DNA of 64,000 nt, from positions 1 through 64,000 of the forward strand of contig CAIOTH010000113.1 in the NCBI GenBank assembly GCA_903861145.1, in the 5' to 3' direction. This DNA comes from an uncultured Bacteroidota bacterium (lineage in GTDB: Bacteria; Bacteroidota; Bacteroidia; Chitinophagales; LD1). Shown here one piece after another: positions 1,244 through 30,615 of this stretch. A program made the position numbers and the translations under genes. How positions within the stretch are numbered: the stretch's first letter is position 1; every line of letters starts with the position of its first letter. The notes under the pieces were generated by a model that was given only the letters and a program-made list of their open reading frames with translations, was not told the origin of the DNA and did not search any database.

Positions 1244-1274
1244 TAACCGTTTTTCGCAGTAAAGGCTCCGGGCC

Positions 1275-2481: not shown

Positions 2482-3378
2482 TTATTTTACCGGGCTATCA
2501 ATTATTTCAGGACGGTTCAAAAAGTAAAGATGCTTTTGTTGGCTAATATCGAAAGGTGGCTTCATCGCCTTTATTTCATAAAAGTCAACAGGGAAAATGT
2601 AGTCTTCCCAACTAATAATTTTTGCTATATCAAACAATTCCTGGAAATTATTTGATATAGTTAGGTGTTCAAACTCGCCCACCTTTATATCGGGAGTTTT
2701 TACAAAAAGTATAATAAAATTTAAGCGGCGAAGTGCGGCCAAAACCTCGTGCAAGTCGGCTACATGGTAACAATAAGCTTTGTCTATTTCCGCAACAATT
2801 TTGTCAATACGCTTTCCATCTTCAGCGTTGGGGTGTTCGCGCTTAAACAGGTCTTTAATGTATAAAACGCCACCGGGCTTTAGAACTTTGAGGGCCTTTT
2901 CAATCAATAAGGGCTTATTGTTTGAATGCCCAAACGATTCAAGAAAAACAACGCGGTCAAAAACTTCAGGGCCATATAATTCATCTATTAAATGGTAATC
3001 GCCTTGCGTGAAATGCGTTTTGCCAATAAGGGTTTGTGAGGGTTTGGCAGCGTTGGCCTTTTGAACCTGAAGTTCGGAAATCGTAACACCCTCCACATCC
3101 ACATTTAGCTTTGAGGCAAAGTATGAAGCGGGGCCACCTATGCCGCAGCCTGCGTCCAAAATTTTTTGTCCGTCCTTCAATTCTGCGTTTTGAATTGTGT
3201 AGTCCAGGTAATCGTAAACGTTGTTAGTTCTAAATGCTTGTATAATATCGCCGTATACTTCAATAAATTTATCGGTGTTTTTGTTATAAAACTCGCCCAC
3301 CTTTGCTGAGTTAAGAGCCACAGTTTTTGTTTGTGAGGGGCCTTGAGATTTAAACAGGTTAAGTATCTTCTTCAACAT
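2482..3378 (-). CDS. Class I SAM-dependent methyltransferase
   Basis: About 298 residues. Motif I is ILDAGCGIGG at residues 73-82, a classic Rossmann-fold SAM-binding loop. Acidic and hydrophobic strands characteristic of motifs II-IV follow (for example VLKPGGVLYIKDLF around 155-170). The closest recognisable type is the small-molecule/sterol/cyclopropane-type methyltransferase set rather than an RNA or protein one. I start it at ATG 3378; an in-frame TTG exists at 3390. It heads the three-gene minus-strand group with the two glycosyltransferases, so methylation of a sugar or lipid carrier is the natural guess. In ABC-exported O-antigens a terminal methyl group can act as a stop signal, but nothing here proves that role. 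Confidence 0.75.
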   Translation of the reverse strand: MLKKILNLFKSQGPSQTKTVALNSAKVGEFYNKNTDKFIEVYGDIIQAFRTNNVYDYLDYTIQNAELKDGQKILDAGCGIGGPASYFASKLNVDVEGVTISELQVQKANAAKPSQTLIGKTHFTQGDYHLIDELYGPEVFDRVVFLESFGHSNNKPLLIEKALKVLKPGGVLYIKDLFKREHPNAEDGKRIDKIVAEIDKAYCYHVADLHEVLAALRRLNFIILFVKTPDIKVGEFEHLTISNNFQELFDIAKIISWEDYIFPVDFYEIKAMKPPFDISQQKHLYFLNRPEIIDSPVK

Positions 3379-3593
3379 GATGTAAAACAAATTAAATACC
3401 CGGCAATAATAGTAAGAAGCGTATAACCTCCCGCATAAATTGTTTGAGCCGATTTGATGCGGAATTTAGTTAAGATATTTTTCCGCACCCTGATGATAAC
3501 TTGATACTCTTTTACAACCGAAGGTTGCCCGAAATTTTGTTATTTTGTATTGCTGATTTTAGCTAATAAAACAGCAGATTAAATTATGATTGA

Positions 3594-4424
3594 GTGAAGT
3601 TAGCTGAGCTAAAAAATCAAAGCGACGAGAGTTCGCTTAACAAGAATGGTTTTATTCTTTTCAGAAATTTTTTGACCGCCGAAGAGGTGGCTGAATTATT
3701 TGCGCTTTATAAAAGTTTGCACAAAAATGCTGACAGGGATAAGGGCATGTGGAACAGCTTAAACGATATTTTGCCCGAAGACGGGTTATATGTAAGCGAA
3801 AAAATTTTGGAAAAGCTTCGTCCCAAGCTGAATGAGTTATTTGTTTCGTACTGTGCGCCTATAGCTACTTTCATGTCGAAAAACTGTAATCCCAACAGCA
3901 CCTGCGACCTGCACCGGGATTTTAGCATACTTAACGAAAATGAATTTCAGTATCGCAACATTTGGATACCGTTGATTTCGACAACGCAAAACAATGGTGC
4001 ATTATATGTGTTACGCGGCAGCAATCATGTTTTTGATTATGTGCTGCCTTTGTTTAGCCCGTGGCCCTATAAAAACATGCAAAATGAACTGTTTCCAATG
4101 GTGGAAACCATTGACGCGGGGGCCGGCGATTTGGTGATATACCTGGATAAAACCCTGCACGGCTCGCACATCAATTTCTCTAACGATTCACGACCGGTTG
4201 TTCATTTTGGGGCTTTGCACCCGGATGTTGAATTGCAGTTTTACAACCTGGATGAAAAGAAGGAAAATGTAAGAGTTTATGCCGTGCCCTCGCGCTTTTA
4301 TTTTGATAAGGATTTTTCGCGTGTTGAAAGCAAATACCCTTTTGTTCGCGAATTTAAATTTGAACCTCCTCCCCTAAAAGTTGCCGAGGTTGTAGAAAAA
4401 CTAAAGGAATATAGCCCGGTTTAA
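3594..4424 (+). CDS. PhyH-family Fe(II)/2-oxoglutarate oxygenase 1
   Basis: 276 residues of phytanoyl-CoA-dioxygenase type, a double-stranded beta-helix oxygenase that uses Fe(II), O2 and 2-oxoglutarate. The metal triad is visible: His107 and Asp109 in LHRDF, and His189. Arg200, eleven residues after the distal His, is in the position that binds 2-oxoglutarate. The N-terminal NGFILFRNFL segment is typical of the family. The start is GTG at 3594; the nearby ATG 3586 runs into TGA after three codons, and the next in-frame ATG would cut off the family's N-terminal strand. It is convergent with the radical SAM gene (6 bases apart). It is the most divergent PhyH member here (HRD rather than HQD). 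Substrate unknown. Confidence 0.8.
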   Translation: MKLAELKNQSDESSLNKNGFILFRNFLTAEEVAELFALYKSLHKNADRDKGMWNSLNDILPEDGLYVSEKILEKLRPKLNELFVSYCAPIATFMSKNCNPNSTCDLHRDFSILNENEFQYRNIWIPLISTTQNNGALYVLRGSNHVFDYVLPLFSPWPYKNMQNELFPMVETIDAGAGDLVIYLDKTLHGSHINFSNDSRPVVHFGALHPDVELQFYNLDEKKENVRVYAVPSRFYFDKDFSRVESKYPFVREFKFEPPPLKVAEVVEKLKEYSPV

Positions 4425-4430
4425 TTAGTA

Positions 4431-5912
4431 TCAATACTCCTCTTCTGCAGTAACCTTGTTATCTAACAGCCGTTGACTTTGGTTAACTAAATATTCAACG
4501 GTGTTTCTCTTAAATGATTCAACTATAACGTTCGCCGGCCAACGACAAGCGTTTCGTAACAATAGTTCTTTGGCTTGTTGATCGGGACGAATATTTATAA
4601 CAACATTAAATTTACCCATAATATCATTGTAAGTCAATTCCTTTTCTTCCTCCGAATAGGCCAGGCCCGCAAGATGCGATTTTAGCTTGCTTTGAAAATA
4701 GGGGTATAGTTCTGTTTCAGATAAAAGTGCCACGCGGTTTTCTTCCTCTTTCTGTTGTATTTCTGCAGTTCTATCGGCTTCAGCCCATTGCTTAACCACT
4801 GCCGTAAAGTATTCATAATGCGCCACGTTTGCTTTTTGGATAACTGTTTGTGCACTGAATTTATGCCCGGCCAGGTATTCGTAAATTTCCTTAATCTGTT
4901 CCGCCGGTAAATTATCAAGGGCATATTTTTTAGGATACCATACTTTATGAAAAGTAGCTACGGCATTCATACCATTACAGAAGTTTACAAAATCAGGTAA
5001 TTCCCTCCAATTTTGCCGCATTACACAGGTAGAAATGCTAAACTTCATTTTCTTGTTTCTGCTATATTCCTGGAAATATTGGATGTTTTCCATTACCCTG
5101 TCAAAATTGGCATTCAATCGAATTGCCTCGTATGTCTCTTTTTTTAATGAGTCAAGCGATACCCCAATTTGGAAATTACCTCTACTCAAAAAGTCCTTAA
5201 TACGTGCATTCAAATAACTCCCGTTGGTTTGAACCATGATAACACATTTGGGGTTCTTTTCAATTATCATTTCCCAAATCTCATAGTTCATGTCAATAGC
5301 AAATGCTTCGCCCGAACCACTAAACCGTGTTTCGTGTAAATAAGGTATGAACTCTTCTAATTGCTTCAAAAAAGCTTTGTCGTAGGGACTGGAAAGCGCT
5401 GGTAATTTCTCCCTGTTTTTCCTGATGAGTGACGAGAACTCTCCTTTGCACATTACACACTCCAGGTTGCATGTGTTGGTCAACAAAAACTCCATCATGC
5501 TGGGATAAATACCTTGTTGCGGCATGTTGTCAAAGTGCCGGGCCCGAACCTCGTTATAACTTCCCATTCTTAAATCCGCTTCGCAAATCTGGCACCCATA
5601 ATTCAGGTTCCAGTCTTTCATATTTTGCCTTAGCGCTTCTGCTTTGGTACTATTCCATATTTCGGAAATACTTTGCTCGGGATACTTACCAATTGAAAAT
5701 TCAAGGTTATGGCAACAAACCCTAACATCGCCAGACTGTGAAAAAAGCATATTTACCGAGGGGGCATAGCAAAAGCTTTGACGGCTGGCACCAGCTAAAC
5801 GACTCTTATTATATTCTCTAATGTTAGTGGTTTCAATTTTACCCGGATTCAAAGGCATTGGCCCCTCCGATATAAATATTTGTTTAATCCTGTCAAGCAC
5901 ATTAATACTCAT
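4431..5912 (-). CDS. Radical SAM enzyme with N-terminal SPASM/twitch-like cysteine region
   Basis: 493 residues. The radical SAM cluster CxxxCxxC is Cys148, Cys152 and Cys155 (NTCNLECVMCKG), followed by a TIM-barrel-like region. A five-Cys region lies in front of it: FCYAPSV (Cys48), RVCCH (Cys66-67) and GCQIC (Cys107, Cys110). This resembles the auxiliary 4Fe-4S binding segment usually placed C-terminally in SPASM/twitch enzymes. The family cleaves SAM to a 5'-deoxyadenosyl radical. Members of this layout occur in glycan and natural-product loci with mostly unknown substrates. The neighbours are PhyH oxygenases, so two oxidative chemistries sit side by side. The substrate could be a sugar nucleotide, a carrier lipid or a peptide; I cannot tell. 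Confidence 0.75.
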   Translation of the reverse strand: MSINVLDRIKQIFISEGPMPLNPGKIETTNIREYNKSRLAGASRQSFCYAPSVNMLFSQSGDVRVCCHNLEFSIGKYPEQSISEIWNSTKAEALRQNMKDWNLNYGCQICEADLRMGSYNEVRARHFDNMPQQGIYPSMMEFLLTNTCNLECVMCKGEFSSLIRKNREKLPALSSPYDKAFLKQLEEFIPYLHETRFSGSGEAFAIDMNYEIWEMIIEKNPKCVIMVQTNGSYLNARIKDFLSRGNFQIGVSLDSLKKETYEAIRLNANFDRVMENIQYFQEYSRNKKMKFSISTCVMRQNWRELPDFVNFCNGMNAVATFHKVWYPKKYALDNLPAEQIKEIYEYLAGHKFSAQTVIQKANVAHYEYFTAVVKQWAEADRTAEIQQKEEENRVALLSETELYPYFQSKLKSHLAGLAYSEEEKELTYNDIMGKFNVVINIRPDQQAKELLLRNACRWPANVIVESFKRNTVEYLVNQSQRLLDNKVTAEEEY

Positions 5913-6052: not shown

Positions 6053-7033
6053 ATGTCGGGTAGTTTTTGGCGTAATCTTTTGGGTTCATCAATTAAGAGG
6101 GCCAGTTCATGGCAACCGGTTAAGCAGGTTGTGGTAAAGGATGCTATAATAGCCGATGCCCTGAATAATTTTGGCTATACAGTAGCGGGCAGACTAGAAG
6201 CGACGGCTCTTGAACAGCTCAAAAGCCTTTACCAATCGTTGCATAATTTTCAGAACCCACAGGGCGGTATGTTTTATAGCCTTTACTCTCATGACCTTGT
6301 TTATCGAAAGAAGGTTCACGAAGGCATAGGGCAAATTCTGCGCCCCATTTATGAGTCTCTTTTCACCAATTATAAATCGGTTCTAAACTCTTATATAGTT
6401 AAGGTTAGCGGACCGGAAAGTGAGTTTTCTTTGCACCAGGATTCAACCAGCCTGGATGAAATGAAATACTCATGCCTTAGTGTGTGGATACCATTACAAG
6501 ATACAGACCTGAATAATGGCTGCATGTGTGTAGTGCCGCACAGCCATAAAATGTTTAGCCCATATCGCGACATCTCGTTTCCGCAGCCGTTTGATGCCAT
6601 CAGCGATACAGTGCGCAAATACCTGAAACCCATTGTGCTAAAAGCAGGGGATATTTTACTTTTCGATAACCGGTTGGTTCACAATTCGGTGGTGAACTCT
6701 TCGGGACGTGACCGCGTAGTGGTTATGTCCGGCATCTTTCCGTCTGAGGCCAAAATCATCCGTTGCTACAAGGACACTTCAAAAGCAAATAACTCCATTG
6801 AAATTATTGAGCAGAAAGACGATTTTTTGCTAACCTTCGAAAACTTTTTTCATGACTGCACATGCCGCCCCGAAACCGGCCATAGTGTTGGGTTTGTTGA
6901 TTGGGATACTTCGGAGATGAGCAAAGAAATGTTTTTAAGCCTTTGTTCAAAATACGGGCTGAAGGAGTCGGATTACGAATTGGCAAACCATCTTCGGCAA
7001 GCCATTATAAGCGAGCCCGTGAAGGCCCATTGA
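6053..7033 (+). CDS. PhyH-family Fe(II)/2-oxoglutarate oxygenase 2
   Basis: 326 residues with an N-terminal extension of about 30 residues before the oxygenase core. His128 and Asp130 (SLHQD), distal His210 and Arg221 give a complete Fe(II)/2-oxoglutarate site. The core strand SVWIPLQDTDLNNG is the family's hallmark. A C-terminal tail of about 90 residues (260-326), also found in the later array members, may shape substrate binding. It is followed after 10 bases by the redoxin lipoprotein gene on the same strand. Substrate unknown; surface-glycan tailoring is inferred from the locus. Confidence 0.85.
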   Translation: MSGSFWRNLLGSSIKRASSWQPVKQVVVKDAIIADALNNFGYTVAGRLEATALEQLKSLYQSLHNFQNPQGGMFYSLYSHDLVYRKKVHEGIGQILRPIYESLFTNYKSVLNSYIVKVSGPESEFSLHQDSTSLDEMKYSCLSVWIPLQDTDLNNGCMCVVPHSHKMFSPYRDISFPQPFDAISDTVRKYLKPIVLKAGDILLFDNRLVHNSVVNSSGRDRVVVMSGIFPSEAKIIRCYKDTSKANNSIEIIEQKDDFLLTFENFFHDCTCRPETGHSVGFVDWDTSEMSKEMFLSLCSKYGLKESDYELANHLRQAIISEPVKAH

Positions 7034-7043
7034 AAATAGCACC

Positions 7044-7613
7044 ATGCAATTATTACCTCGCTACATTTGGTTGATTATAGTGGTGCCGTTGCTTCTATAC
7101 TCTTGCAAAGCAGGAAATAAGAACGGAACATATGAGAGCATTATTAAGCAGGCCGGGTTTTCGAATGAGAAAAAACTGCTGGTAGTTGTTTTTATAAATC
7201 CGGAATGCCCCATTACTCAAAAATATACGCGAACACTGAACGAGTTAAGCGATAGTTTGAACGAAAGCACGCTCTTTGTTGGCGTAATACCGGGTAAGCT
7301 TTTTAATGGCCGGAAGATTACAGACTTCAGAAAGGAATTTGCTTTTAAGATTCCGATAATTAAAGATGAGCAGTACGCTATTACTAAAACCCTTTCGGCA
7401 ACGGTTTACCCCGAAGTGGTTTTGTTAAACCAGAAGTCGGAAAAATTGTATAGCGGAAAAATAGATAATTGGTACGAAAGCGTTGGCAACTACCGGGCTG
7501 AACCTACCGAGTTTTATTTGAAAGAAGCGATTAAAGAGTACCTGCATAATGGAACCGTATCTACGAAGAGCACTAAAGCCGTGGGTTGTTTTATTAATTA
7601 TGAACGCAACTAG
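7044..7613 (+). CDS. Redoxin/thioredoxin-fold lipoprotein
   Basis: 189 residues. A hydrophobic N-terminus ends in a lipobox with Cys21 (LLYSC), so it is probably a lipoprotein facing the periplasm. The redoxin core shows VVVFINPECPITQKY with a single peroxidatic-type Cys55 followed by Pro, not CxxC. Near the end is VGCFI (Cys182), the motif that in many planctomycete and Bacteroidota proteins joins a redoxin domain to a cytochrome c/copper monooxygenase unit. Here that second unit is the separate gene at 10014. The last four bases overlap the convergent wzt gene. Likely role: electron or thiol partner of the downstream copper enzyme (inference). Confidence 0.7.
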   Translation: MQLLPRYIWLIIVVPLLLYSCKAGNKNGTYESIIKQAGFSNEKKLLVVVFINPECPITQKYTRTLNELSDSLNESTLFVGVIPGKLFNGRKITDFRKEFAFKIPIIKDEQYAITKTLSATVYPEVVLLNQKSEKLYSGKIDNWYESVGNYRAEPTEFYLKEAIKEYLHNGTVSTKSTKAVGCFINYERN

Positions 7614-8950
7614 TCCTTTTTTTCTACCGACCATTTAACGGCCGGCCTCACGGCCACCTTCATGTTATCGCCTACATAATCTATGTCGCCATCATTGCTT
7701 TTTAACCTGAAGTGAATGTTTTGTGGCAAAATAAACATGCCCATCTGGTTTCTTACCGAACCGATAGATGTTTCTTTCATGGGGTTTTTACCCACGTGAA
7801 GAACGGCATAGTAATTACCTGCTTTTAAAAACCTGGCAGGAATTTCACATGTAAACTCAATCATTCCCGTCTGGCCCTTTCCCTCTTGCGTAAAATCAAT
7901 CCTGTTTTCGTTGTTTAAAGGATGCATCAACAACACCGGTTCATTAAACATATCATGAAGCACCAGCATAATCACGATTGAGTTTTCCTTTTCCGGCTTA
8001 TCAACCAACACCTTCATTTGCACTATCTCCGATATATACAAATGCGCTATATTCCCCTGTTTATTCCCAACAAAAACACTTCGCACTTTAACAATTTCAT
8101 TGCCGGGTGCCTGGTCTGCATTCCATTCCTTTCGCACTCCATCATTGGCATTGTCAATAATGGCGGTAGCACTTCCTGTTTCAATCAACTTACTCTTTTG
8201 ATCTAATTCATAATGCTGTTTTTGGTCAGCATAGTACTCTGCAATCAAATCAAGCGGGGTGCCCATTTTTCTTATCTCCCCCTTGTCAAGCCAAAGGCAG
8301 CGGGTACTTAATTCAAGTATTTCGTTTTTACTGTGAGACACAAAAATGATTGACTTGCCCTTACTTTTTAATTCGCGAAAATGGTCATTGCACTTCATTC
8401 TGAAACTTTCATCTCCAACGGCTAATACCTCATCCAGAATCAAAATATCAGCATCGGTATTAAATGCCACCGAAAATGCCAGCCGCAAAAACATACCATT
8501 TGAGTAGTACTTTACCGGTTGGTCAAAAAAGTCATCTATACCGCTGAAGTTTCTGATTGTTTCTGTTTTCTCAGTAAATCTTGCTTTTGCAATATGGTTT
8601 AGCCGTAAGTGCATCAGGGTATTTTCGCGGCCCGTAAGTTCAGGATGAAAATTACTACCTATTTCAAGTATTGAAATTACACTGCCCCGTATTCTTATCT
8701 CACCTTCGGTGGGTTTGGTTACAGAGCTCAATATCTTAAGTAGCGTGCTTTTCCCCGAACCGTTACTACCTATTATGCCTATTATATCACCCTTCTGTAA
8801 ATCAAAGCTTACATTACGAAGGGCGTAGAATTCTGAGCCTTCGGTTTGGGCATGAACAGCCTTTCCGTTAGATATCTTATACCTTTTCGAAATATTGCTA
8901 ATAGAAATAACCGGAGGGTTATCAACCAGTGTCGGCGTCTCGTTTATCAT
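7610..8950 (-). CDS. wzt: Wzt-like ABC exporter ATPase with glycan-binding C-terminal domain
   Basis: 446 residues. Walker A GSNGSGKST is at 61-69, the signature region YSNGMFLRLAFS at 149-160, Walker B ILILDEVLAVGD at 169-180, and the switch His at 206. This order and the deviating signature are typical of Wzt/TagH polysaccharide exporters. A second domain of about 170 residues (roughly 275-445, beta-rich) corresponds to the Wzt carbohydrate-binding domain, which in known O-antigen systems recognises a terminal modification on the chain before export. The permease partner is the Wzm gene at 21397, 12 kb away. It overlaps the upstream PhyH gene by 4 bases, implying translational coupling. Confidence 0.9.
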   Translation of the reverse strand: MINETPTLVDNPPVISISNISKRYKISNGKAVHAQTEGSEFYALRNVSFDLQKGDIIGIIGSNGSGKSTLLKILSSVTKPTEGEIRIRGSVISILEIGSNFHPELTGRENTLMHLRLNHIAKARFTEKTETIRNFSGIDDFFDQPVKYYSNGMFLRLAFSVAFNTDADILILDEVLAVGDESFRMKCNDHFRELKSKGKSIIFVSHSKNEILELSTRCLWLDKGEIRKMGTPLDLIAEYYADQKQHYELDQKSKLIETGSATAIIDNANDGVRKEWNADQAPGNEIVKVRSVFVGNKQGNIAHLYISEIVQMKVLVDKPEKENSIVIMLVLHDMFNEPVLLMHPLNNENRIDFTQEGKGQTGMIEFTCEIPARFLKAGNYYAVLHVGKNPMKETSIGSVRNQMGMFILPQNIHFRLKSNDGDIDYVGDNMKVAVRPAVKWSVEKKD

Positions 8951-9768
8951 ACCAATACCTTAGCCAATAAATCTGCCGAAGTTACGACAGGGTGATTGTA
9001 ATGAATTTGTTCAAATACTTCTGCGTCCGGGTCGGCTCCGTTAGCTATTGTTTTCAGCTCCCGCAAAAATGCATCTTCATGCAAACAGAATGCCTTTACC
9101 ATTTTTTCTTGCTCATTATTTATGGCCTGAAAATACGTGAAGTTTGCACTTTCGGGCAAAACAATGGAGGTTACAATAGTGCGATGTCGATTACTGTTAT
9201 TGGGATAGGAGCCGTGAAAAACCGCCGGATGAAAAAGCAGCACATCTCCTTTTCTCATCGTTACCTTATGCAGTTTATTATCCGGCAATTCGGATGATGA
9301 AATGCGCGCCGTTGGCAAACTGAAACTTCGCAAATTATTGAACCAGGTATGGCTACGTGGTAGCAAAAATATGGCGCCATTATTTTCATCTACGTCGCAC
9401 AATGGCATCCACAGCGTAATTGAATGAAACTTATGTTCATCTGTATAACACCAATCCTGGTGCAATAATAGTTCGCTCGCGGTATTTGCCGGTTTTGTCA
9501 AAAATGATTCGTTAAGAGATTTGTAACCTGTTAGATACTCCTTGTAAAAGGGATTTAAATATCCCGTTATTTTATCCTTTATCCGTCTGTTATTCTCTAA
9601 ATCGTTAGCAATTAAGCTATAATAAAAATCAGTGCCAATACCCGAGAGATAGGGCTTAATAAACTGCTCTATCACATCTATCACATTTTCAAGGCCGGCC
9701 TCAATCACTACATATCCCAATTCGTTGAATTGTGCTTGATGAATGGAGGACTTGAAAATGTCTTTCAT
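8947..9768 (-). CDS. PhyH-family oxygenase 3, coupled to wzt
   Basis: 273 residues. His103 and Asp105 (LLHQDW), His185 and Arg196 complete the Fe(II)/2-oxoglutarate site, and SITLWMPLCDVDENNGA is the family core strand. It lacks the long C-terminal tail of the array members and ends soon after the fold. Its stop codon overlaps the wzt start (ATGA type), so the oxygenase and the export ATPase are probably made from one mRNA in a fixed ratio. This is the strongest contextual link in the window between a PhyH enzyme and glycan export. Confidence 0.85.
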   Translation of the reverse strand: MKDIFKSSIHQAQFNELGYVVIEAGLENVIDVIEQFIKPYLSGIGTDFYYSLIANDLENNRRIKDKITGYLNPFYKEYLTGYKSLNESFLTKPANTASELLLHQDWCYTDEHKFHSITLWMPLCDVDENNGAIFLLPRSHTWFNNLRSFSLPTARISSSELPDNKLHKVTMRKGDVLLFHPAVFHGSYPNNSNRHRTIVTSIVLPESANFTYFQAINNEQEKMVKAFCLHEDAFLRELKTIANGADPDAEVFEQIHYNHPVVTSADLLAKVLV

Positions 9769-12538: not shown

Positions 12539-12541
12539 GGC

Positions 12542-19204: not shown

Positions 19205-20386
19205 TCATTTGTCTGATTTAGATATTGATTGCTTTACTCCAAAGCGCTTTTTAAAGTAGTCCATTGCAGAAATATTTTCCCTCTTCAGATCAACCTTAAA
19301 TATCCTGAATAGGTAATAAATAAAATAATTGCCGGGGTAGGAAAGAATTATGCGCGCAGTAATTAGATTACCTTTAAAGGATATCGATTCCCACCAGCCA
19401 TAAATCCTATCGGCTGCCTGAGTATAAAATTCAAAATTAAATATCGTAAGATGCACTGCAATCAATATTGCAAATCTTATATCACCAACGGCTAGTATAA
19501 GGAGATAAGTTAGCGGCAGCCATTTTTCGTAAATGTTGTTTGGGAAAAAACTCCAGGTGCTCTTTAAAAAAGGAGGGGCTCCTTTTTCCATAAATAGCAT
19601 AAATGCCATGGCAGATAAACCCAAAATGACCAGCAAACAGATTGAAAACAACGGGTTAACAGATAGTAGGCTTGTAAAAAAACCAAGGCAGAAAATCCAC
19701 TCAACAACAATAAGTGCGCTAAGCAATAAATGAAATTTTGAAGGTGCCAGTCCGGCAACAAAATTTTTGCTGCCCGCTCTTTTATCAGCTTCTACATCCT
19801 CAGCAAGATGCAAAATGATGTTTCGGGCACCTGATATTGTTTGCCACGCAAACAATAGTAAAATCTCAACCGTAGAAAATAGATGATGCGCGGCCAACGC
19901 AAAAGTATAAGCGGCTAATACCGAAGGAATGCCATGTGCATATAGCGCATCTGTAATAATGCCCGCAAAGCCACGCTCTTTAAGCCGGACAGGAGGAACG
20001 GAGTAAACCATATATAATAACAGTTGTACTGCTATTAAAGCTAAACTTAGCCAGGTTTTAGGCAAAAAAAGCCAGGGCATTAAAACAAACGCTGCCGACA
20101 CTAAAAACAGGATTATGATGAGCCATCCCGGCTTCCCGGCCAAAAAATTTCTTTTGCCTGCAAGCGTATCCTTTTCAATATCGAACAAATCATTGAATAG
20201 ATAGCCCATGCCCGCGAAGCCGGTTATTGTTACAAGCGACAACAGAGAAAGGGGGATAAATGCGCGGAACGAAATTTTATACCACGCTGCAAATAAGTAC
20301 ACAAGCCCCATTAGCAAAGCTGCTTTGCTCCACCACCAGTCTTTCACTCTAAAAATCCCCTTATATGGGGGGGCTGCGCCTACCAT
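19205..20386 (-). CDS. UbiA-family prenyltransferase
   Basis: 393 residues with 8-9 membrane segments. The two Asp-rich motifs of the family are NDLFDIEKD (65-73) and AEDVEADKR (195-203); both coordinate Mg and the polyprenyl diphosphate. Family members attach prenyl chains to aromatic rings, haem, glycerol phosphate or, in DPPR synthase, phosphoribose. The C-terminus extends about 110 residues beyond the core. In this glycan locus, transfer to a sugar phosphate to make a lipid-linked donor is attractive, but quinone or pigment synthesis cannot be excluded. It diverges from the glycosyltransferase at 20454. Confidence 0.75.
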   Translation of the reverse strand: MVGAAPPYKGIFRVKDWWWSKAALLMGLVYLFAAWYKISFRAFIPLSLLSLVTITGFAGMGYLFNDLFDIEKDTLAGKRNFLAGKPGWLIIILFLVSAAFVLMPWLFLPKTWLSLALIAVQLLLYMVYSVPPVRLKERGFAGIITDALYAHGIPSVLAAYTFALAAHHLFSTVEILLLFAWQTISGARNIILHLAEDVEADKRAGSKNFVAGLAPSKFHLLLSALIVVEWIFCLGFFTSLLSVNPLFSICLLVILGLSAMAFMLFMEKGAPPFLKSTWSFFPNNIYEKWLPLTYLLILAVGDIRFAILIAVHLTIFNFEFYTQAADRIYGWWESISFKGNLITARIILSYPGNYFIYYLFRIFKVDLKRENISAMDYFKKRFGVKQSISKSDK

Positions 20387-20453: not shown

Positions 20454-21365
20454 ATGAATCATTTTTGCACCATCACCACTTACGACCATCTCTATAAAGT
20501 CTTCGCCCTGCGCGATTCGCTACTGCAATATGATAATAATACCACGCTACATGTATTGATGGTTGATAATGGCAAATTATCCGTTACAGATAATGCGATT
20601 AAAATGTATTCCATTGCCGATTTGGGTAATGATGAGCTGGTTAAAAGCATACAAAAAAAATATGCCGTTCACAAGGACAAATTGCGTTGGAGCCTCAAGC
20701 CCTCGTTCTTAAAATTTTTATTGGGAAAAAGCGAAGTTGACAAAGTCATTTACCTTGATAACGATCTCTTTTTTTATAATGATTATCGGTTCCTTTTCGA
20801 TCATCTCGATGATCATGCCTTTTTGTTAACGCCTCATTATTACGACCGGTCGCCGGAGTATCATCAAAACTGGTTGGAGGCAAATTTCAGGGCAGGCTTG
20901 TTCAACGCCGGCTTTATTGGGGTAAACAAAAATGCCGTTAATACCTTACAATGGTGGGCAGAGTGCTGCTTATATCGTTGTAAAAAGAGCGCCTTTAGGG
21001 GAACTTTCGATGACCAAAAGTACCTGGATCTAATTCCTGTAATGCGCGAAGACGCCATGATACTTAGGCACCAGGGCTGCAACGTGGCAGAATGGAACCG
21101 TTTTTTATGTCTGCGCCAGGTTGTTAATGGCCAGGTTTTAATTAATGGAGTTTGGCCCATTGTATTTATTCACTTTAACATCACTACTATTCGCGAAATA
21201 ATGGATGGCACCGAACCTTTACTGGGTGATTATTTTAATGAATATATGGGCGCCTTACGAAAATACAAGCCCGGCATTAAACCCGGCGATGTATATCGTT
21301 CTCCCGCCACCATTGATTTAATAAAATATTCGGTTTGGAAATTTCTGACCGTTAGGGGAATATAA
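20454..21365 (+). CDS. GT-A-like glycosyltransferase, paralogue C
   Basis: 303 residues, soluble. DND at 102-104 (VIYLDNDLFFYNDY) is the metal/nucleotide site. NWLEANFRAGLFNAGFIG and FDDQKYLDLIP follow, the layout of glycogenin/LgtC-like enzymes. A close paralogue is at 32489, and the pair at 26 and 1275 is more distantly similar. It is the first gene of the plus-strand run leading into wzm and the PhyH array (31-base gap to wzm). Donor and acceptor are unknown. Confidence 0.7.
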   Translation: MNHFCTITTYDHLYKVFALRDSLLQYDNNTTLHVLMVDNGKLSVTDNAIKMYSIADLGNDELVKSIQKKYAVHKDKLRWSLKPSFLKFLLGKSEVDKVIYLDNDLFFYNDYRFLFDHLDDHAFLLTPHYYDRSPEYHQNWLEANFRAGLFNAGFIGVNKNAVNTLQWWAECCLYRCKKSAFRGTFDDQKYLDLIPVMREDAMILRHQGCNVAEWNRFLCLRQVVNGQVLINGVWPIVFIHFNITTIREIMDGTEPLLGDYFNEYMGALRKYKPGIKPGDVYRSPATIDLIKYSVWKFLTVRGI

Positions 21366-21396: not shown

Positions 21397-22218
21397 ATGA
21401 ACGACGAGGTTAAATTAATCCGCCCCGGAACAACATCTTTAAATGCTTATATCAATAGCATTTGGAACTCACGTGCGCTTATCTACACGTTTGCCTGGCA
21501 AGAACTTAAAGTGCAATACTCACAAACCATGCTTGGCGTTTTATGGGCAGTACTAAGGCCCATGATTATACTGCTCATTTTTACATTAATTTTTGGCAGG
21601 CTTATAAAGGTACCTGGTATTACGATGCCATATGCACTGTTTGCATTCTCCGGCCTAATGGCCTGGAACTACTTCAATTTTATTGTGAACAATGGCAGCA
21701 GCGTTATTATAAACAACCAAAACCTCATTCGCAAGTTTTATTTTCCCAAAGTCATTTTATTGCTTTCAAAGTCGCTGGTGGGTTTGGTAGAGTTCTTTAT
21801 TTCCCTGGCGCTTCTGTTTGCCCTAATGGCAATTTTACGGTTTGAATTTACTCTGCACATAGCATGGTTTCTCTTTTTTATCATGTTAAACCTACTTTCG
21901 GGCTTAACCGTTGCCTTGTGGCTAAGCGCCTTAAGTGTGCGATATCGTGATATCAACCAGTTTGTTTTACCACTTATCGGTTTTGTTATTTGGCTGACCC
22001 CGGTTTTTTACCCCGTTACCTTAATTCCAAGCGCTTATTCCTTTGTTCTCTTTTTCAATCCTTTATCGGGTATCATACAGGGCTATCGGTTTGCGCTTTT
22101 AGGTGGCGAATTTCTACCCATTCAGTACTTTTACACCTTTGCCATAGTTGGGCTGCTTTTTTTTATTGGCTTATTGATTTTCATCAGGGTTGAAGACGAT
22201 ATGCCAGACTACCTTTAA
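21397..22218 (+). CDS. wzm: Wzm-like ABC polysaccharide export permease
   Basis: 273 residues with six membrane segments and a short N-terminal amphipathic stretch. FAWQELKVQYSQTMLGVLWAVLRP is the coupling-helix region typical of ABC-2 type O-antigen and teichoic-acid export permeases. It is the natural partner of the Wzt ATPase at 7610, though the two genes are 12 kb apart and on opposite strands, whereas they are usually adjacent. The next gene, 38 bases on, starts the PhyH array, which ties the array to export. Confidence 0.88.
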   Translation: MNDEVKLIRPGTTSLNAYINSIWNSRALIYTFAWQELKVQYSQTMLGVLWAVLRPMIILLIFTLIFGRLIKVPGITMPYALFAFSGLMAWNYFNFIVNNGSSVIINNQNLIRKFYFPKVILLLSKSLVGLVEFFISLALLFALMAILRFEFTLHIAWFLFFIMLNLLSGLTVALWLSALSVRYRDINQFVLPLIGFVIWLTPVFYPVTLIPSAYSFVLFFNPLSGIIQGYRFALLGGEFLPIQYFYTFAIVGLLFFIGLLIFIRVEDDMPDYL

Positions 22219-22256: not shown

Positions 22257-23177
22257 ATGAGAAAGGTGATGAATGATGCCCAACTGGAGGCTATGTTTCA
22301 ACGTGATGGTTACGTTGAGATTCCTTTTATTTCAAAAGAAGAGGTTGAGGGCCTAAAGCAAAAGTTTTACGATACACTACCCAAAAGCGGTGGCCAGATA
22401 ACAGCCGGAGAAACCGGTGTTGAAGGTGCCGGTTTTATTACCTACGATTTTACCTTTATCGATAGGAACATCGATTACAAAAAAGAAGTCTTCAAAATCA
22501 TTACTGAATATTTTCAACCACATGTAGAAAAATGGTTGGCAGATTACAAACCCATCATAGCTAATTATATCCGCAAAAAAACCGATACCGGCGAAGTGCC
22601 CCTGCATCAAAACTGGGCTTTTGCCGATGAAAAAAAGGTTTGCACCGTTTCCATCTGGTGCCCTTTGGTAGATTCGTTTGAAGAGAATGGCACATTGCAG
22701 GTTGTGCCCGGTAGCCATAAACGCTTTGGCGAAGTCCGCGGGCCTATGATACCATGGGAGCTCGACGACATTAAAAGCGAAATCATATCAGGTTACCTTA
22801 AACCACTTAATGTAAAAGCCGGTAATGCCATTGTGCTGGATGATAGTATAGTACACTACTCGGCCATTAACAAAACCAACGACTTAAGGCTTGCTATACA
22901 GCTGATATTAATACCCGGTGAGGAGCCGTCGATACATTACCACATGAACCCTGCCGAAAGTGCCGAACTGGTAAATGTATTGGAGGTAGACCGCGATTTT
23001 TATATGCAGTTTAACCCCTGGAAACAACCGGAAGGAGCAAAAGTGGTTAAGCAGTTTAAACATCAACCGCGTCGTATTGACATAAAGGAATTTAATGTGC
23101 GCATGAAGGGCCCACGGATAGACGAGGAAGCTAAATCGAAAAATTTTGTAGAGAAGCTTAAGGCAGTTTTCTCATGA
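22257..23177 (+). CDS. PhyH-family protein 4 with HxN in place of HxD
   Basis: 306 residues, clearly homologous to its neighbours (SIWCPLVDSFEENGTLQVVPGSH). The metal motif reads LHQNW: His117 and Asn119, with codon AAC at 22611-22613, where all other PhyH domains here have Asp. The distal His200 and 2-oxoglutarate Arg211 are kept. Asn is a poor substitute for the carboxylate ligand, so the enzyme may be inactive, use a different chemistry, or serve as a partner subunit. It is not the HxG/HxA pattern of Fe/2-oxoglutarate halogenases. First gene of the array behind wzm. Confidence 0.85.
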   Translation: MRKVMNDAQLEAMFQRDGYVEIPFISKEEVEGLKQKFYDTLPKSGGQITAGETGVEGAGFITYDFTFIDRNIDYKKEVFKIITEYFQPHVEKWLADYKPIIANYIRKKTDTGEVPLHQNWAFADEKKVCTVSIWCPLVDSFEENGTLQVVPGSHKRFGEVRGPMIPWELDDIKSEIISGYLKPLNVKAGNAIVLDDSIVHYSAINKTNDLRLAIQLILIPGEEPSIHYHMNPAESAELVNVLEVDRDFYMQFNPWKQPEGAKVVKQFKHQPRRIDIKEFNVRMKGPRIDEEAKSKNFVEKLKAVFS

Positions 23178-23196
23178 CACCAATAAACAGCAATTG

Positions 23197-25101
23197 ATGA
23201 CACCGATATTTAATGATACCAGGTTACAGCAGCAGTTTGAAAAAGATGGATTTGTAGTTATCCCGTTTTTGAATGAGGCAGAAGCAAATAAGCTTTCGTC
23301 GTTTTTTTATGAGTTGCATAATAACGTGCCCGAAAACTTTTACTCAACAACTTTTAATGCCAGCCCCGAATTTAAGGGTCGAATAAACGAGGAGACAAAC
23401 AATGTTTTCGGCAGCAAGATTGATGGACTACTTACCGGCATTAAAAAGTTGGGAAGCAGTTTTTTATGCAAGGCCCCGGGCGCAGGTGGTAAAATGCCGG
23501 TTCACCAGGATTGGACGGTGGTTGACGAATCGAAATTTTGCTCAGTTACCATTTGGATACCTTTGGTTGATACGAACGAAAAGAATGGCGCCATTAGGGT
23601 ATTGTGCGGAAGCCACAAATTTACCGACACGTTACGTGCACCTACTTTACCCAGCGAATACGCTGCCTTGCAAGATGAGATTTGGAACGAAATGGAACTG
23701 CTCCCGATGAAAGCGGGTGAGGCTTTTATTTTTAACCACGCCTTATTACACGCATCCTCCGTAAATACAACTGATAAAGAAAGGCTGGCCATTACCTACG
23801 GTGTTATACCCACCGAGGCACGCTTAATGCTTTACCACTTAAATGAAAATAAAAAGCTCGAAAAATACCTGATGCCCGATGATATGTTTCAACGGTACCA
23901 TAACATTGGGCAGCGCCCTGAATTTGGTGAGCGGGTAGAGGAGTTTGCTTACGAAGTAAAGCCCATGAGCAGTTTAAAGCTGCATTCGCTTATCAATAAA
24001 GAAATAAGGAGCCGCAAGATGAAGCCCTTATTTAAGGATGCCGAAGTTCAAAAGTTTTTTGATGCCGAAGGTTATGCCAAAGTGCCGGTTTTGAATAGTG
24101 AAGAGGTGCAGCTATTGCTTGATTACTATAAAGGCCTGCAACTAAAAGATGAGGCCGGTTTTGGTTTTCACATCAGTATGGATGTAAAGGACAAAACCCT
24201 CGTGCCAAAAATTTTGGAGAAGATTTACGAAGTTGCTTTGCCTAAGGTAAGTGCTCATTTTGAAAATGCTAAACCGTTTGTAGGTAGCTTCGTAATAAAA
24301 GAACCAAACCCGATGGGCGTTGTGCCGGTGCACCAGGATTGGAGTTTTGTAGAAGACGAAGAACAGCATTGTTCGGTTACTTGTTGGGTGCCATTAGTTG
24401 ATACCAATCTCGATAATGGAGCCTTAGGTGTAGTTAGGGGCAGCCATAACTTTTTTCGCAGTCACCGGCCATCGCCATCACCACAAGTGCCATCACCCAT
24501 TTCCGAACACATGTTTACTATCTTCCCTTATCTTAAATTGGTGGAGATGAAGGCTGGTGAAGCCTTGATATTTGATAACCGTACTTTCCATGGTTCTCCT
24601 CCCAACTCGTCCGATTCTCCACGTATTGCGTTTGGAATTGGCTTTACACAAAACGATGCACAGCTTTGCCATTTTTATTTAAAGCCCGATGGCAATAAAA
24701 ATAAAATACTGAAGTATAAAATTGATAGCTCGTTTTTCTTTAAATACGAAAACCCGGGCCTGGCTAAAATGTACGACAAGGGTGAGTTAATTGAGGGATA
24801 CGATATGGTTGAAGAATTGCCTTTTGTGCTTCCAAAATTTACTGCCGATGAACTGGTAGACCTGATAAAAGAAAACGGTAATGAGTTTAACGTGCCTATG
24901 TGCGAAAAGCTGGCCAAGCTGTTTAGTTATAATATGGATGGCAGCAAAAAAGAAGAAGCCCAAAACAAACTGGAAGAAGTTAAGCAGGTAATTGAAGAGC
25001 CTAACGAGCCTTATGTGTGGGTTGACGACCGTAGCTTCTTCCAAAAATATACCCCGTTAAATGTGGTTCGCGAAATCAAAAAAAGACTTCAGTCCAATTA
25101 A
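23197..25101 (+). CDS. Tandem double-domain PhyH oxygenase (5 and 6)
   Basis: 634 residues from ATG 23197 (a TTG directly in front is ignored). Two complete PhyH domains stand head to tail. Domain 1 (about 5-265) has His103, Asp105, His185 and Arg196. Domain 2 (about 275-525) has His379, Asp381, His465 and Arg476. Both retain the full Fe(II)/2-oxoglutarate set. A charged segment of about 100 residues follows domain 2. The residues around the metal differ (HQDWTVVDESK against HQDWSFVEDEE), so the halves are old duplicates and may act on different positions. Start lies 17 bases after the preceding stop; operonic. Confidence 0.88.
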   Translation: MTPIFNDTRLQQQFEKDGFVVIPFLNEAEANKLSSFFYELHNNVPENFYSTTFNASPEFKGRINEETNNVFGSKIDGLLTGIKKLGSSFLCKAPGAGGKMPVHQDWTVVDESKFCSVTIWIPLVDTNEKNGAIRVLCGSHKFTDTLRAPTLPSEYAALQDEIWNEMELLPMKAGEAFIFNHALLHASSVNTTDKERLAITYGVIPTEARLMLYHLNENKKLEKYLMPDDMFQRYHNIGQRPEFGERVEEFAYEVKPMSSLKLHSLINKEIRSRKMKPLFKDAEVQKFFDAEGYAKVPVLNSEEVQLLLDYYKGLQLKDEAGFGFHISMDVKDKTLVPKILEKIYEVALPKVSAHFENAKPFVGSFVIKEPNPMGVVPVHQDWSFVEDEEQHCSVTCWVPLVDTNLDNGALGVVRGSHNFFRSHRPSPSPQVPSPISEHMFTIFPYLKLVEMKAGEALIFDNRTFHGSPPNSSDSPRIAFGIGFTQNDAQLCHFYLKPDGNKNKILKYKIDSSFFFKYENPGLAKMYDKGELIEGYDMVEELPFVLPKFTADELVDLIKENGNEFNVPMCEKLAKLFSYNMDGSKKEEAQNKLEEVKQVIEEPNEPYVWVDDRSFFQKYTPLNVVREIKKRLQSN

Positions 25102-25110
25102 ATAAATACC

Positions 25111-26016
25111 ATGTTTTCTTTTCCTAAAATGCTGAAAGTTTTTCGTGACCAGGCGCTGCAAGATGCGTTTGAGAAGGATGGTTTTGTTGTGGTTCCGTTT
25201 TACAACGAAGCGGAAATAAAGGAACTCACCGAGCTGTACTACCGCATGCACCCTCAGGATGAAAAAGGCTTTTTCCCCAGTACTTTTTCAAAAGATAAAA
25301 ACTACCGCGCTGTTGCTGATACCGAAATACGCCGTGTTTGCGCTCGTGCAATGGAACAATACCTGCAGGATATAAAAGTGATTTGTGGGAGCTTTATCGT
25401 TAAATCTCCTGGGCCCGAAAGTGCCATGTGTGTGCACCAGGATATGACCCTGGTGGATGAATCGAAATACACCGGTATGAATATTTGGGTGCCATTGACC
25501 GATTTAACACCAGAAAATGGTGCGCTGCAAATATTAAGGGGTAGCCACAGGTTATTCCCAACATACAGAGGTTCAACTATTCCGGGCATTTATGAAGAAG
25601 TGAGCGAAGAAATAAAAACATACCTGGAGACGCTTTACTTAAAAGCCGGTGAGGCAGTGTTTTTTGACCAAAGCATTATTCATTATTCGGCGGCTAATCT
25701 TTCCGATAAAGTACGCATTGTTACCAATACCTTTTTTACCAATAAAGACGCGAATTTCAACATTGGCTACTGGCGAAAAGATTTCGGAAGTAAAATTGAG
25801 CTGTTTGAAGAGGATGATAATTTTATGACAGATTTTGAGCAGTTTGGGCATAATATAGCCGACCGGCCAAAAATTGGAAAGAGCCTGGGATTAGTGGATT
25901 ATAATTTTCCAAAAATATCTTTGGAGCAATTGCAACGTATTTATGGTAAATCCGAAGAAAAATTACCGGTAAAAAAACCTTTGTTGAAAAGGGTATTTGA
26001 AAGCTTGTTTCAATAA
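25111..26016 (+). CDS. PhyH-family Fe(II)/2-oxoglutarate oxygenase 7
   Basis: 301 residues. His109 and Asp111 (VHQDMTLVDESKY), His191 and Arg202 are all present, with NIWVPLTDLTPENGALQILRG as core. Unlike most array members, Met follows HQD where the others have Trp, which may alter the pocket. The C-terminal 80 residues form the tail shared by the array, ending in a basic amphipathic stretch (LLKRVFESLF) that could touch a membrane or a partner. It begins 9 bases after the previous stop. Confidence 0.87.
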   Translation: MFSFPKMLKVFRDQALQDAFEKDGFVVVPFYNEAEIKELTELYYRMHPQDEKGFFPSTFSKDKNYRAVADTEIRRVCARAMEQYLQDIKVICGSFIVKSPGPESAMCVHQDMTLVDESKYTGMNIWVPLTDLTPENGALQILRGSHRLFPTYRGSTIPGIYEEVSEEIKTYLETLYLKAGEAVFFDQSIIHYSAANLSDKVRIVTNTFFTNKDANFNIGYWRKDFGSKIELFEEDDNFMTDFEQFGHNIADRPKIGKSLGLVDYNFPKISLEQLQRIYGKSEEKLPVKKPLLKRVFESLFQ

Positions 26017-26021
26017 ACAGT

Positions 26022-26951
26022 ATGTCTATCAGGATTTTTAAAGACGACCAAATGCAGGCCCTTTTTGATAAACAGGGCTTTTTAACTGTGCAGTTTATTA
26101 ATGAGGCAGAAGTAAAACAACTGAACGACCTGTTTGACCAACTACATCCCTCATTGCCACTGCAAGGATTTGTTTCAGGAAGCTACTCCGCCGATTTTGA
26201 ATACAAAAAAAGGGCAAGCAATGCCATTGTGGAAGTGCTTAACAAGCATTATGAACGCCTGTTTACAAATTACCAGGCCTTCGGTGCTGCGTTCCTTTTT
26301 AAAATGCCTTCTAACGATAGCGAATTAGGTATACATCAGGATTGGACCATTGTTGACGAAAATAAATTTGTAGCCCTTAATTGCTGGATACCACTTACCG
26401 ATATCAACGAAGCCAATGGTGCATTACATGTTGTGCCCGGGAGTCATTTCCCCTCCTACAATACCCTAAGAGCCCCCACGGTTCCTTTTTTCTTTTCGGG
26501 CAATGAGGATGTTGTTATTGCCGAATCGGTACCTATGTATGTAAAGGCGGGCGAGGCAGTAATTTTGAATCAAAGCGTTATTCACTACTCGCCACCTAAC
26601 CGGTCCGACAAAATACGAAAAGCTATAACCGCAGGAGTAAAATCGCAGGGCGCTCCTATGCATTTTCATTATAAAGCACCCGCCGATACCCACAAACTTG
26701 AAGTATTTGAAATGCCCGAAGACTTTTTAATAAGCTTTGACGATTTTTATAAAGACATTTTTGAACGGCCAAAAATGGGGCGCAGCGTTGGTTACCTAAA
26801 TTATTCCTCACCTGTGTTGCCGCGTGTTGAAGTTATGAACCTGATTTCAAATTTGAAAGTGAGCACCGGTTTTGAAAAAAAGAAATATGGTGAAGCGACC
26901 CAGCGGCACAAAGGTTTTTTTAAACGGCTTGTTGAGGCTCTTCAATCATGA
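26022..26951 (+). CDS. PhyH-family Fe(II)/2-oxoglutarate oxygenase 8
   Basis: 309 residues. His105 and Asp107 (IHQDWTIVDENK), His188 and Arg199 complete the site. The tail ends in FFKRLVEALQS, the same basic-amphipathic ending as its neighbours. Only 5 bases separate it from the upstream gene, and it shares 4 bases (ATGA) with the downstream one, so translation is likely coupled through the array. Confidence 0.87.
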   Translation: MSIRIFKDDQMQALFDKQGFLTVQFINEAEVKQLNDLFDQLHPSLPLQGFVSGSYSADFEYKKRASNAIVEVLNKHYERLFTNYQAFGAAFLFKMPSNDSELGIHQDWTIVDENKFVALNCWIPLTDINEANGALHVVPGSHFPSYNTLRAPTVPFFFSGNEDVVIAESVPMYVKAGEAVILNQSVIHYSPPNRSDKIRKAITAGVKSQGAPMHFHYKAPADTHKLEVFEMPEDFLISFDDFYKDIFERPKMGRSVGYLNYSSPVLPRVEVMNLISNLKVSTGFEKKKYGEATQRHKGFFKRLVEALQS

Positions 26952-27832
26952 GTGTAGCGCAGAAAATATTACAAGATGACCAACTTGATAGCCTGTTGTT
27001 ACAACAAGGTTTTGTAGTAATTCCTTTTTTGAATAGCGATGAGGTTAAGTCTTTAGTTAATTTTTATTATGAACACCACTCCAAAAGTCAGGACGGCATG
27101 TATGCTACGGCCCATGTACCCGATGTGGCCTTCAGGATGAAAATGAACGATTACATTAAGCAGGTTTTTGCACGTGCAATTGAGCAAACCTTTATTAATC
27201 ATACTGCCTTGGGGGGCTCGTTTATTGCGAAGGGTAAGGGGTCGTTGGGAACATTGCATCCGCATCAGGACTGGAACATTGTTGATGAAGAAATTTTCCG
27301 TTCGTTCAACATTTGGGTTCCGTTGGTTGATTTGAATGACGACAATGGGGTAATAAAAATACTGCCTGGTAGCCACGCATGGTTAACCACTTACCGTAGC
27401 GCCAATATATCTTCAGCTTACGGAAATGTAAACGATTTGCTTTGGCAAAAAATGGAGCCCTTATACATGAAAAAGGGAGAGGCGTTGATTTACGATCACC
27501 GCTTGCTACACGCTTCCGGCGAAAACAAATCAGATGAAATAAGGCTTGCGGCGGTATACGGTGTCATTCCGGACAAAAGCGAAATGCGCTATTATCATAA
27601 AGCCGATGAAAAGACCATAGAGGTTTTTGAATCGAACCCTGAGTTTTTTCTTTACGGCAATATTTTTGAAGGGCCTAAAGGCTTAAAGAGTTTGCTCCGG
27701 TTTGAATTTGAATTTCCTGAAGTCACTAGCGATAGGCTCAATCGGTTTATCAATCCAAATTACATAGCTCCGCAAAATGATTTGCCACCACCCTCGCTGT
27801 TCAATAGAATAAAATCCTTTTTAACCAGGTAG
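26948..27832 (+). CDS. PhyH-family Fe(II)/2-oxoglutarate oxygenase 9
   Basis: 294 residues and the last member of the array. His106 and Asp108 (HPHQDWNIVDEE), His188 and Arg199 are present. Ends with FNRIKSFLTR, again amphipathic and basic. It overlaps its upstream neighbour by 4 bases. Three bases after its stop lies the stop of the convergent arylsulfotransferase-like gene, so the plus-strand transcript ends here, with no obvious hairpin terminator. Confidence 0.87.
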   Translation: MSVAQKILQDDQLDSLLLQQGFVVIPFLNSDEVKSLVNFYYEHHSKSQDGMYATAHVPDVAFRMKMNDYIKQVFARAIEQTFINHTALGGSFIAKGKGSLGTLHPHQDWNIVDEEIFRSFNIWVPLVDLNDDNGVIKILPGSHAWLTTYRSANISSAYGNVNDLLWQKMEPLYMKKGEALIYDHRLLHASGENKSDEIRLAAVYGVIPDKSEMRYYHKADEKTIEVFESNPEFFLYGNIFEGPKGLKSLLRFEFEFPEVTSDRLNRFINPNYIAPQNDLPPPSLFNRIKSFLTR

Positions 27833-29607: not shown

Positions 29608-30615
29608 ATGTACAAGGCAATACAGTTCATAGGCACTCAAAGATCGGGCTCTAATTTATTACGAGTAATGCTCGATCAGTTTCCCGAAGTATTTGGACCT
29701 CATCCCCCTCATGTACTTATCACTTTTTATCCCTTGCTTAAATATTACGGCAATCTTGAAGACACTACAAACTTCAAAAAGCTTATTGAGGATATTTGCC
29801 GACTAATTGAGGTAAACCCCGTGCCATGGGATGGCTCTCCCCTTAACCGCGAGAAGATTTTTAAGCGCTGCAGAAGGCGCACTTTGCTCGAAGTTTTCAT
29901 TCAAATAAACGAGTTTGAGTGCGAGGAGAGCGGAAAGACAATATGGTGCTGCAAAAGCATGGAGTCGCTGTATCTGCTTGATAAATTCCGCGAAGAAGGA
30001 TTTGAGCCCTTATATCTGTACCTGTATCGCGATGGGCGCGATGTCGCCCTATCGTTTAAAAAAGCAATAGTTGGCGAGAAACACATTTACAACCTTGCGG
30101 TAAAGTGGAAGGCCGATCAGGATACCTGCTTAAGGGAGTTAGAAAAAATTGATGCCGGCCGGTACGTAAAAGTCAAGTACGAAGATTACATTGGCGATTC
30201 AGACATTTTTATAAAAGAGATTTGTAATCGGGTCGGCATAAAATATCAAAACGTTGCTAACGATTTTTATAAATCTGAGGAGTCAAAACGTACCGCCGCC
30301 GGGGGAAAGATGTGGGAGAATGTTACAAAGCCGGTAATGAAAAATAACTATGGCAAGTTTTTGAAAGAGCTATCAGCAGAAGAAATATTGATTTTTGAAC
30401 AGGTAGCCGGAGATACACTGGTTGAGCTTGGTTATCAATTACACGTGATAAAGCCGGGAGAAACCAGGGTTTTTACACCCGAAGAAATTGCGTCGTTCAA
30501 TGCTGAAAACGATCGCTTAAAAAAACAAATCGTCCATCAATTACCACCGGAAGATATACTGAAAAGAAAATTGCAGTCGGATATTATTGCCGAAATAAAG
30601 CATTACGCACATTAA
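29608..30615 (+). CDS. PAPS-dependent sulfotransferase
   Basis: 335 residues, cytoplasmic. The 5'-phosphosulfate loop is IGTQRSGSNLLR (8-19) and the 3'-phosphate site is YRDGRDVALSF (140-150), both as in the Sulfotransfer family. The enzyme would move sulfate from PAPS to a hydroxyl, here most likely a sugar or lipid precursor. The last 35 residues are charged and may form a coiled coil. No sulfate-activation genes (cysDN/cysC) are in the window. Diverges from the ASST-like gene with 284 bases between them. Confidence 0.85.
   Translation: MYKAIQFIGTQRSGSNLLRVMLDQFPEVFGPHPPHVLITFYPLLKYYGNLEDTTNFKKLIEDICRLIEVNPVPWDGSPLNREKIFKRCRRRTLLEVFIQINEFECEESGKTIWCCKSMESLYLLDKFREEGFEPLYLYLYRDGRDVALSFKKAIVGEKHIYNLAVKWKADQDTCLRELEKIDAGRYVKVKYEDYIGDSDIFIKEICNRVGIKYQNVANDFYKSEESKRTAAGGKMWENVTKPVMKNNYGKFLKELSAEEILIFEQVAGDTLVELGYQLHVIKPGETRVFTPEEIASFNAENDRLKKQIVHQLPPEDILKRKLQSDIIAEIKHYAH

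Follow-up and report, generated by a model that had tools for sequence, protein, structure and literature searches.

Downstream of the exporter gene wzm, a Bacteroidota genome carries an array of PhyH oxygenase genes that is a conserved gene set: it recurs in the home family, and its lead gene is found in at least six families. In the clade of the lead protein, Ph22257, the aspartate of the HxD metal-binding motif is replaced by an asparagine that is fixed and selected, not a product of decay. We see an even chance that the array encodes a paired, membrane-tethered set of 2-oxoglutarate (2OG) oxygenases that modifies a lipid-linked glycan ahead of its export by Wzm/Wzt, with the asparagine (HxN) protein as a partner subunit.

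Layout and spread of the PhyH array

The window, i.e., the whole 64,000-nucleotide stretch analysed, comes from contig C113 of a 4.7 Mb Bacteroidota genome. In it the ABC-2 permease gene wzm (21397..22218, + strand; Pfam ABC2_membrane, E 1.2e-14) is followed by five + strand genes (22257-27832), with successive gaps of 38, 16, 9, 5 and -4 bases. These are Ph22257 (22257..23177), the tandem two-domain Ph23194 (23194..25101; H104-Q-D in domain a and H380-Q-D in domain b), Ph25111 (25111..26016), Ph26022 (26022..26951) and Ph26948 (26948..27832), the last three each with HQD. All five match Pfam PhyH (E 8e-44 to 2e-18). Three further PhyH genes lie elsewhere in the window: Ph3594 (3594..4424, + strand; HRD), Ph6053 (6053..7033, + strand; HQD) and Ph8947 (8947..9768, - strand), which adjoins the Wzt gene. 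The eight genes score 49-151 bits, above the curated PF05721 cut-off of 22 bits, and nine of the 13 PhyH domains of the genome are found here. Strands, gaps and Pfam matches agree with the preliminary description, which had reported six domains in five co-directional genes past wzm, the three additional genes, and a full HxD...H...R set in eight of the nine domains. The exception is Ph22257, with HQN; the distal histidine is kept in all nine.

An arginine is found 11 residues past the distal histidine in every one of these domains. As a count this spacing, remarked on earlier, is correct, but it is a trait of the PhyH family rather than of the locus; nearly all domains examined share the register, as does human PHYH (H264/R275), and it was dropped as special evidence. 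The nine domains are only 24-38% identical pairwise, which, as had been stated earlier, speaks against a recent duplication. With gene order conserved as well, recent tandem duplication and assembly artefact were both rejected. A gene for a GT8-like glycosyltransferase (20454..21365, + strand; Pfam Glyco_transf_8 below cut-off, DxD-type motif IYLDNDLFF) lies 31 bases before wzm on the same strand, so GT8-wzm-PhyH x5 is a likely operon with the glycosyltransferase gene first. The next gene past the array is convergent with it; it encodes an arylsulfotransferase-like protein (27836-29323) and stands beside the sulfotransferase gene at 29608.

PhyH proteins are not abundant in the phylum at large. 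They were detected in 33 of 99 Bacteroidota genomes (completeness >=90%), never with more than five per genome, compared with 27 of 30 genomes of the home family, mostly at 9-23 copies each; the expansion is thus a property of the lineage. All five array orthologues occur in unchanged order at L001, L002, L004, L005, L011 and L014-L017. In L007 and L008 the order is retained with two genes inserted ahead of the last member, and other loci retain part of the array. Among the 249 genomes of the order that were searched with a profile of the lead gene (cut-off E 1e-45), 51 carry it, from families f1, f6, f12, f18, f19 and f22; among 395 genomes across the phylum, the same profile gave a single weak match apart from the home genome.

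Conservation of the array behind wzm had been put forward as a test of its significance. The order of the array is indeed conserved, but the link to wzm is not obligatory. Of 40 loci in relatives, 15 have wzm directly upstream of the HxN gene on the same strand; the gene directly downstream of it encodes a PhyH protein in 30 of 39. The array is away from wzm in at least seven relatives (L006, L009, L010, L011, L014, L015 and L017). It adjoins a dihydrouridine synthase (dus) gene in L011, with an upstream gene of equal length in L014 and L017, and a desaturase gene in L009; the array is thus often, but not tightly, linked to the exporter. Genome G006 has retained the HxN gene although the remaining array lies on a separate contig. 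The HxN gene of bog_950 (L002:7134-8223, on a contig shared with L071) is split into two overlapping reading frames, by a frameshift or a sequencing error.

The asparagine protein and its partners

In Ph22257 the motif reads H117-Q118-N119, with H200 and R211 kept. A first alignment of 16 sequences (Ph22257 and 15 orthologues) had only H-Q-N or H-E-N at this site. Among 271 PhyH domains over all loci, 41 have H[QE]N, 228 have the aspartate, one has HQG, and one is a fragment short of the motif; the distal histidine and the arginine are present in all 41 HxN domains. In a tree built with the D/N column left out, 39 HxN sequences group together in a single clade (support 1.0), and the remaining two make up a small neighbouring group. 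Comparisons of close relatives give Ph22257 a dN/dS of 0.029-0.038, among the lowest in the array (0.034-0.076 for the other genes). With the asparagine fixed across the clade, the other ligands kept and dN/dS at 0.03-0.04, the lead gene is not decaying, and a pseudogene was rejected. The earlier view of its motif set as merely incomplete does not hold, since the D-to-N change is fixed clade-wide. The single HQG protein (L069:11838-12689) has a halogenase-like triad and belongs to a PhyH-rich locus of family f19.

The AlphaFold model of Ph22257 (pLDDT 80.7) has the double-stranded beta-helix fold, and its best structural matches are FtmOx1, SnoK, SnoN and PHYHD1 (Z 15.4-16.1 over 191-219 residues). 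It shares the superfamily and a changed facial-triad aspartate with 2OG halogenases of the SyrB2, CurA and WelO5 types, but these have Gly or Ala at that position and Ph22257 and its orthologues have Asn. To our knowledge no known 2OG halogenase has Asn there, and a SyrB2-type halogenase is unsupported for Ph22257. Literature searches for '2-His-1-Asn' and for PhyH pseudoenzymes found nothing.

A parallel is also offered by the TlxI/TlxJ and TlxA/TlxC proteins of talaromyolide biosynthesis (PMC12141560), PhyH-like in fold, where a canonical and an altered member belong together. In the TlxI/TlxJ heterodimer the non-catalytic subunit makes the other one more active (PMC12141560). The 2OG arginine is missing from TlxI; in contrast, the HxN protein keeps R211, as do all HxN domains, and differs in the metal ligand (Asp to Asn). 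With this arginine in place, the HxN protein may have kept the ability to bind 2OG and metal. The Tlx proteins also belong to a fungal meroterpenoid pathway, whereas the array is part of a putative bacterial surface-glycan locus in which gene fusions suggest pairing. Ph22257 is best read as either a subunit resembling a pseudo-oxygenase or a catalyst of an unusual kind.

Natural fusions suggest which domains might pair. In L059, L060 and L061 (families f18 and f12), directly behind wzm, the HxN domain is fused to an orthologue of 23194b; the partner domains show 53% and 42% identity to 23194b. In L052 the orthologue of Ph25111 is fused to that of Ph26022. The two profile lists for HxN and Ph23194 were also compared over 249 genomes, home genome included: 40 have both, 11 have HxN without the tandem protein (several of these incomplete or with a contig end at the locus) and two have the tandem protein without HxN. 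The AlphaFold model of the L060 fusion has both domains folded (pLDDT 82.8), but with pTM 0.49 their orientation is undefined and the model lends no support to a fixed pair.

Exporter, glycan genes and membrane tails

The ABC-2 permease Wzm and a Wzt/TagH-type ATPase make up the exporter of the locus. Wzt (7610..8950, - strand) matches TarH / Wzt chains over residues 16-254 (E 1e-55 to 1e-53). Its C-terminal part (~residues 255-446, ~190 residues) occupies the position of the carbohydrate-binding domain; no such domain was identified in it by sequence, with no family or PDB sequence match. Genes that recur across loci include those for Wzm, Wzt, a UbiA-family membrane prenyltransferase (19205..20386, - strand), a methyltransferase (2482..3390, - strand), two paralogous glycosyltransferase-like proteins (26..2480, as 26-1243 and 1275-2480, - strand), AsnB, and a radical SAM protein of twitch/SPASM type (4431..5912, - strand). 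A PDB sequence search with the UbiA protein, considered as a candidate polyprenyl phosphoribosyl transferase, gave no match. The paralogous pair carries YLDTDV motifs and has no Pfam match, nor does the 26-1243 protein have one in the PDB; by eye, GT-A DxD-type motifs are present in proteins 26, 1275, 20454 and 32489. A Sulfotransfer_3 sulfotransferase (29608..30615, + strand) is 85% identical to an orthologue encoded next to the bog_950 array.

The exporter core also exists alone. The PhyH-free relatives G003 and G011 keep Wzm-Wzt-rSAM (L080 and L081), and G003 has methyltransferase-UbiA-AsnB-rSAM-GT in a single stretch, so the oxygenases are a layer added to a core exporter pathway. Close orthologues of the methyltransferase co-occur with the HxN gene: in the home family 22 genomes have both, two and one have just one or the other, and five have neither (Fisher p 8e-4, an overstated value, as orthologues are not independent samples). 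A homologue of the methyltransferase is also fused to two PhyH domains in L065 and L067, and L066 encodes a protein that agrees with these in length and motifs. Hydroxylation followed by methylation would be the simplest reading of this link. These fusion proteins (L065:10589-13141, L066:6054-8606, L067:6659-9214) are 850-851 aa long with HSD and HFD motifs, and a carbamoyltransferase gene is near the one in L065.

All five array proteins end, after a linker, in a short basic amphipathic segment (KNFVEKLKAVFS in Ph22257, FFQKYTPLNVVREIKKRL in Ph23194, KPLLKRVFESLFQ in Ph25111, KGFFKRLVEALQS in Ph26022 and PSLFNRIKSFLTR in Ph26948). The maximal hydrophobic moment, measured on the last 16 residues, is 0.61 for array orthologues, against 0.50 for the remaining PhyH proteins at these loci and 0.44 for other proteins (array vs. 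other PhyH, p 8e-8; vs. other proteins, p 3e-26; both overstated by the same dependence among orthologues). Similar tails are found on some PhyH proteins of second, Wzt-linked arrays, and are absent from Ph6053 and Ph8947. In type the array tails resemble the membrane-targeting sequence of MinD, and the proteins are predicted to be membrane-tethered through this helix. No signal peptide was seen by eye at their N-termini, so the proteins probably work from the cytosol, at the inner surface of the membrane.

A second conserved array occurs in L012, L013, L020, L021 and L022, with a Ph8947-like gene (orthologous to Ph8947 in L012 and L020-L022), several PhyH genes, a 565-aa two-domain PhyH protein and Wzt; in L020 and L021 the methyltransferase and UbiA are nearby. 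Inside this array are WelO5-like proteins (L013:9125-9997, L020:10016-10888, L021:7166-8083, L022:6514-7431; PF22814, E 2.5e-51 in L013) with H-C-G, a halogenase signature, and halogenation of a surface glycan is possible there. The window genome has another Wzm/Wzt-UbiA-methyltransferase-AsnB locus, with one PhyH gene (L023:8927-15636, G000:C23).

Proposed function and alternatives

The preliminary description proposed multi-step oxidative tailoring (putatively +16 Da) of an exported glycan or its lipid carrier. A battery tied to glycan export is supported by conservation of the array, by neighbouring glycosyltransferases, by a methyltransferase that is both fused to PhyH domains and co-inherited, and by the membrane-type tails; the loose link to wzm, the HxN lead gene and a core that exists without PhyH are the points on which the proposal has to be amended. 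In the mechanism we favour, the array would be a conserved operon whose products, PhyH oxygenases dependent on Fe(II) and 2OG, stay in the cytosol and modify a lipid-linked surface glycan on the inner side of the membrane, ahead of Wzm/Wzt export, each anchored there by its C-terminal helix. Domains would pair as in the fusions: 22257 with 23194b, 23194a with 23194b, and 25111 with 26022. Ph22257, with its 2-His-1-Asn site, would most likely be a conserved partner with little or no catalysis of its own, shaping the active site of Ph23194 or the binding of substrate, much as TlxI acts for TlxJ. The products may be hydroxyls, or rings as with the orthosomycin and nogalamycin oxygenases, then partly methylated by the co-inherited methyltransferase.

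Several known systems resemble parts of this scheme. The nearest solved relatives by sequence include SnoK, SnoN, EvdO2 (distant, E 2e-5), MysH and PHYHD1. EvdO2, SnoK and SnoN tailor glycosylated natural products, with several oxygenases per cluster, but they have canonical metal ligands and are soluble enzymes of secondary metabolism without Wzm/Wzt; SnoK and SnoN are merely 16-19% identical to the Ph22257 model in structural alignment. The WbdD and Wzt cap systems (E. coli O9a; A. aeolicus, PMC9445017) resemble the proposed scheme in that a methyltransferase takes part and enzymes modify the chain terminus in the cytosol before a Wzt with a C-terminal domain exports it. In A. aeolicus this Wzt domain reads a methylated cap (PMC9445017). 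They differ in that no kinase is seen at the window locus and the modifications proposed here are oxidative. In the literature searched, one paper, a Xanthomonas mutant screen, mentions both 'phytanoyl-CoA dioxygenase' and 'wzm'.

The HxN protein could itself be catalytic: its 2-His-1-Asn iron centre, with arginine-bound 2OG, would then carry out a reaction different from simple hydroxylation, such as epimerisation, ring closure, or transfer of a halide or pseudohalide. We consider this unlikely. A pure scaffold would be expected to drop other residues too; here the distal histidine and arginine persist in every HxN domain, the asparagine is fixed, and purifying selection is very strong. The halogenase-type WelO5-like HCG genes of sister arrays make halogenation plausible in this class of pathway. 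On the other side are the Gly or Ala of the 2OG halogenases we know of, the empty search for a 2-His-1-Asn centre, and the fusion with an intact HxD domain, which fits a partner role better. There is a small chance of a bolder version in which an active, 2OG-binding 2-His-1-Asn enzyme forms a membrane-tethered complex with its HxD partners and makes an uncommon modification that licenses export of the lipid-linked glycan. Whichever holds, a clade with all other ligands kept raises the question of whether 2OG oxygenases can use an asparagine ligand in nature, and also whether pseudo-oxygenase partners, so far described in fungal pathways, occur in bacteria.

The array might instead modify a lipid (an acyl chain, the polyprenyl carrier or part of lipid A), its place behind wzm being a convenience of the operon. 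The family is named after a fatty-acyl-CoA hydroxylase, the tails are of membrane type, a fatty acid desaturase gene immediately precedes the array in L009 and lies no more than 10 kb away in L007, and wzm is unlinked to the array in several genomes; but the recurrent neighbours are glycosyltransferase-like genes, Wzm and Wzt rather than desaturases, and the closest PDB sequence relatives are not for the most part fatty-acyl hydroxylases, which leaves a lipid substrate improbable. Very improbable is a lineage-wide expansion in which each enzyme works alone on its own substrate and the operon order is inherited, not functional. High PhyH numbers throughout these genomes and the divergence of the members would fit it; an order conserved over several families, fusions between neighbours, a common type of tail and co-occurrence would not.

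For a tailored glycan, five to six oxygenase domains serving one substrate would imply a structurally unusual polymer with extensive oxidation or cyclisation, in environmental Bacteroidota whose surface-glycan chemistry is little known. The window also has two MBOAT genes (11390-13972 and 51644-54012); an AlgX/SGNH-like partner accompanies one of them, the other adjoins the gene of an unassigned 302-aa protein, and a polysaccharide may receive acyl decoration besides.
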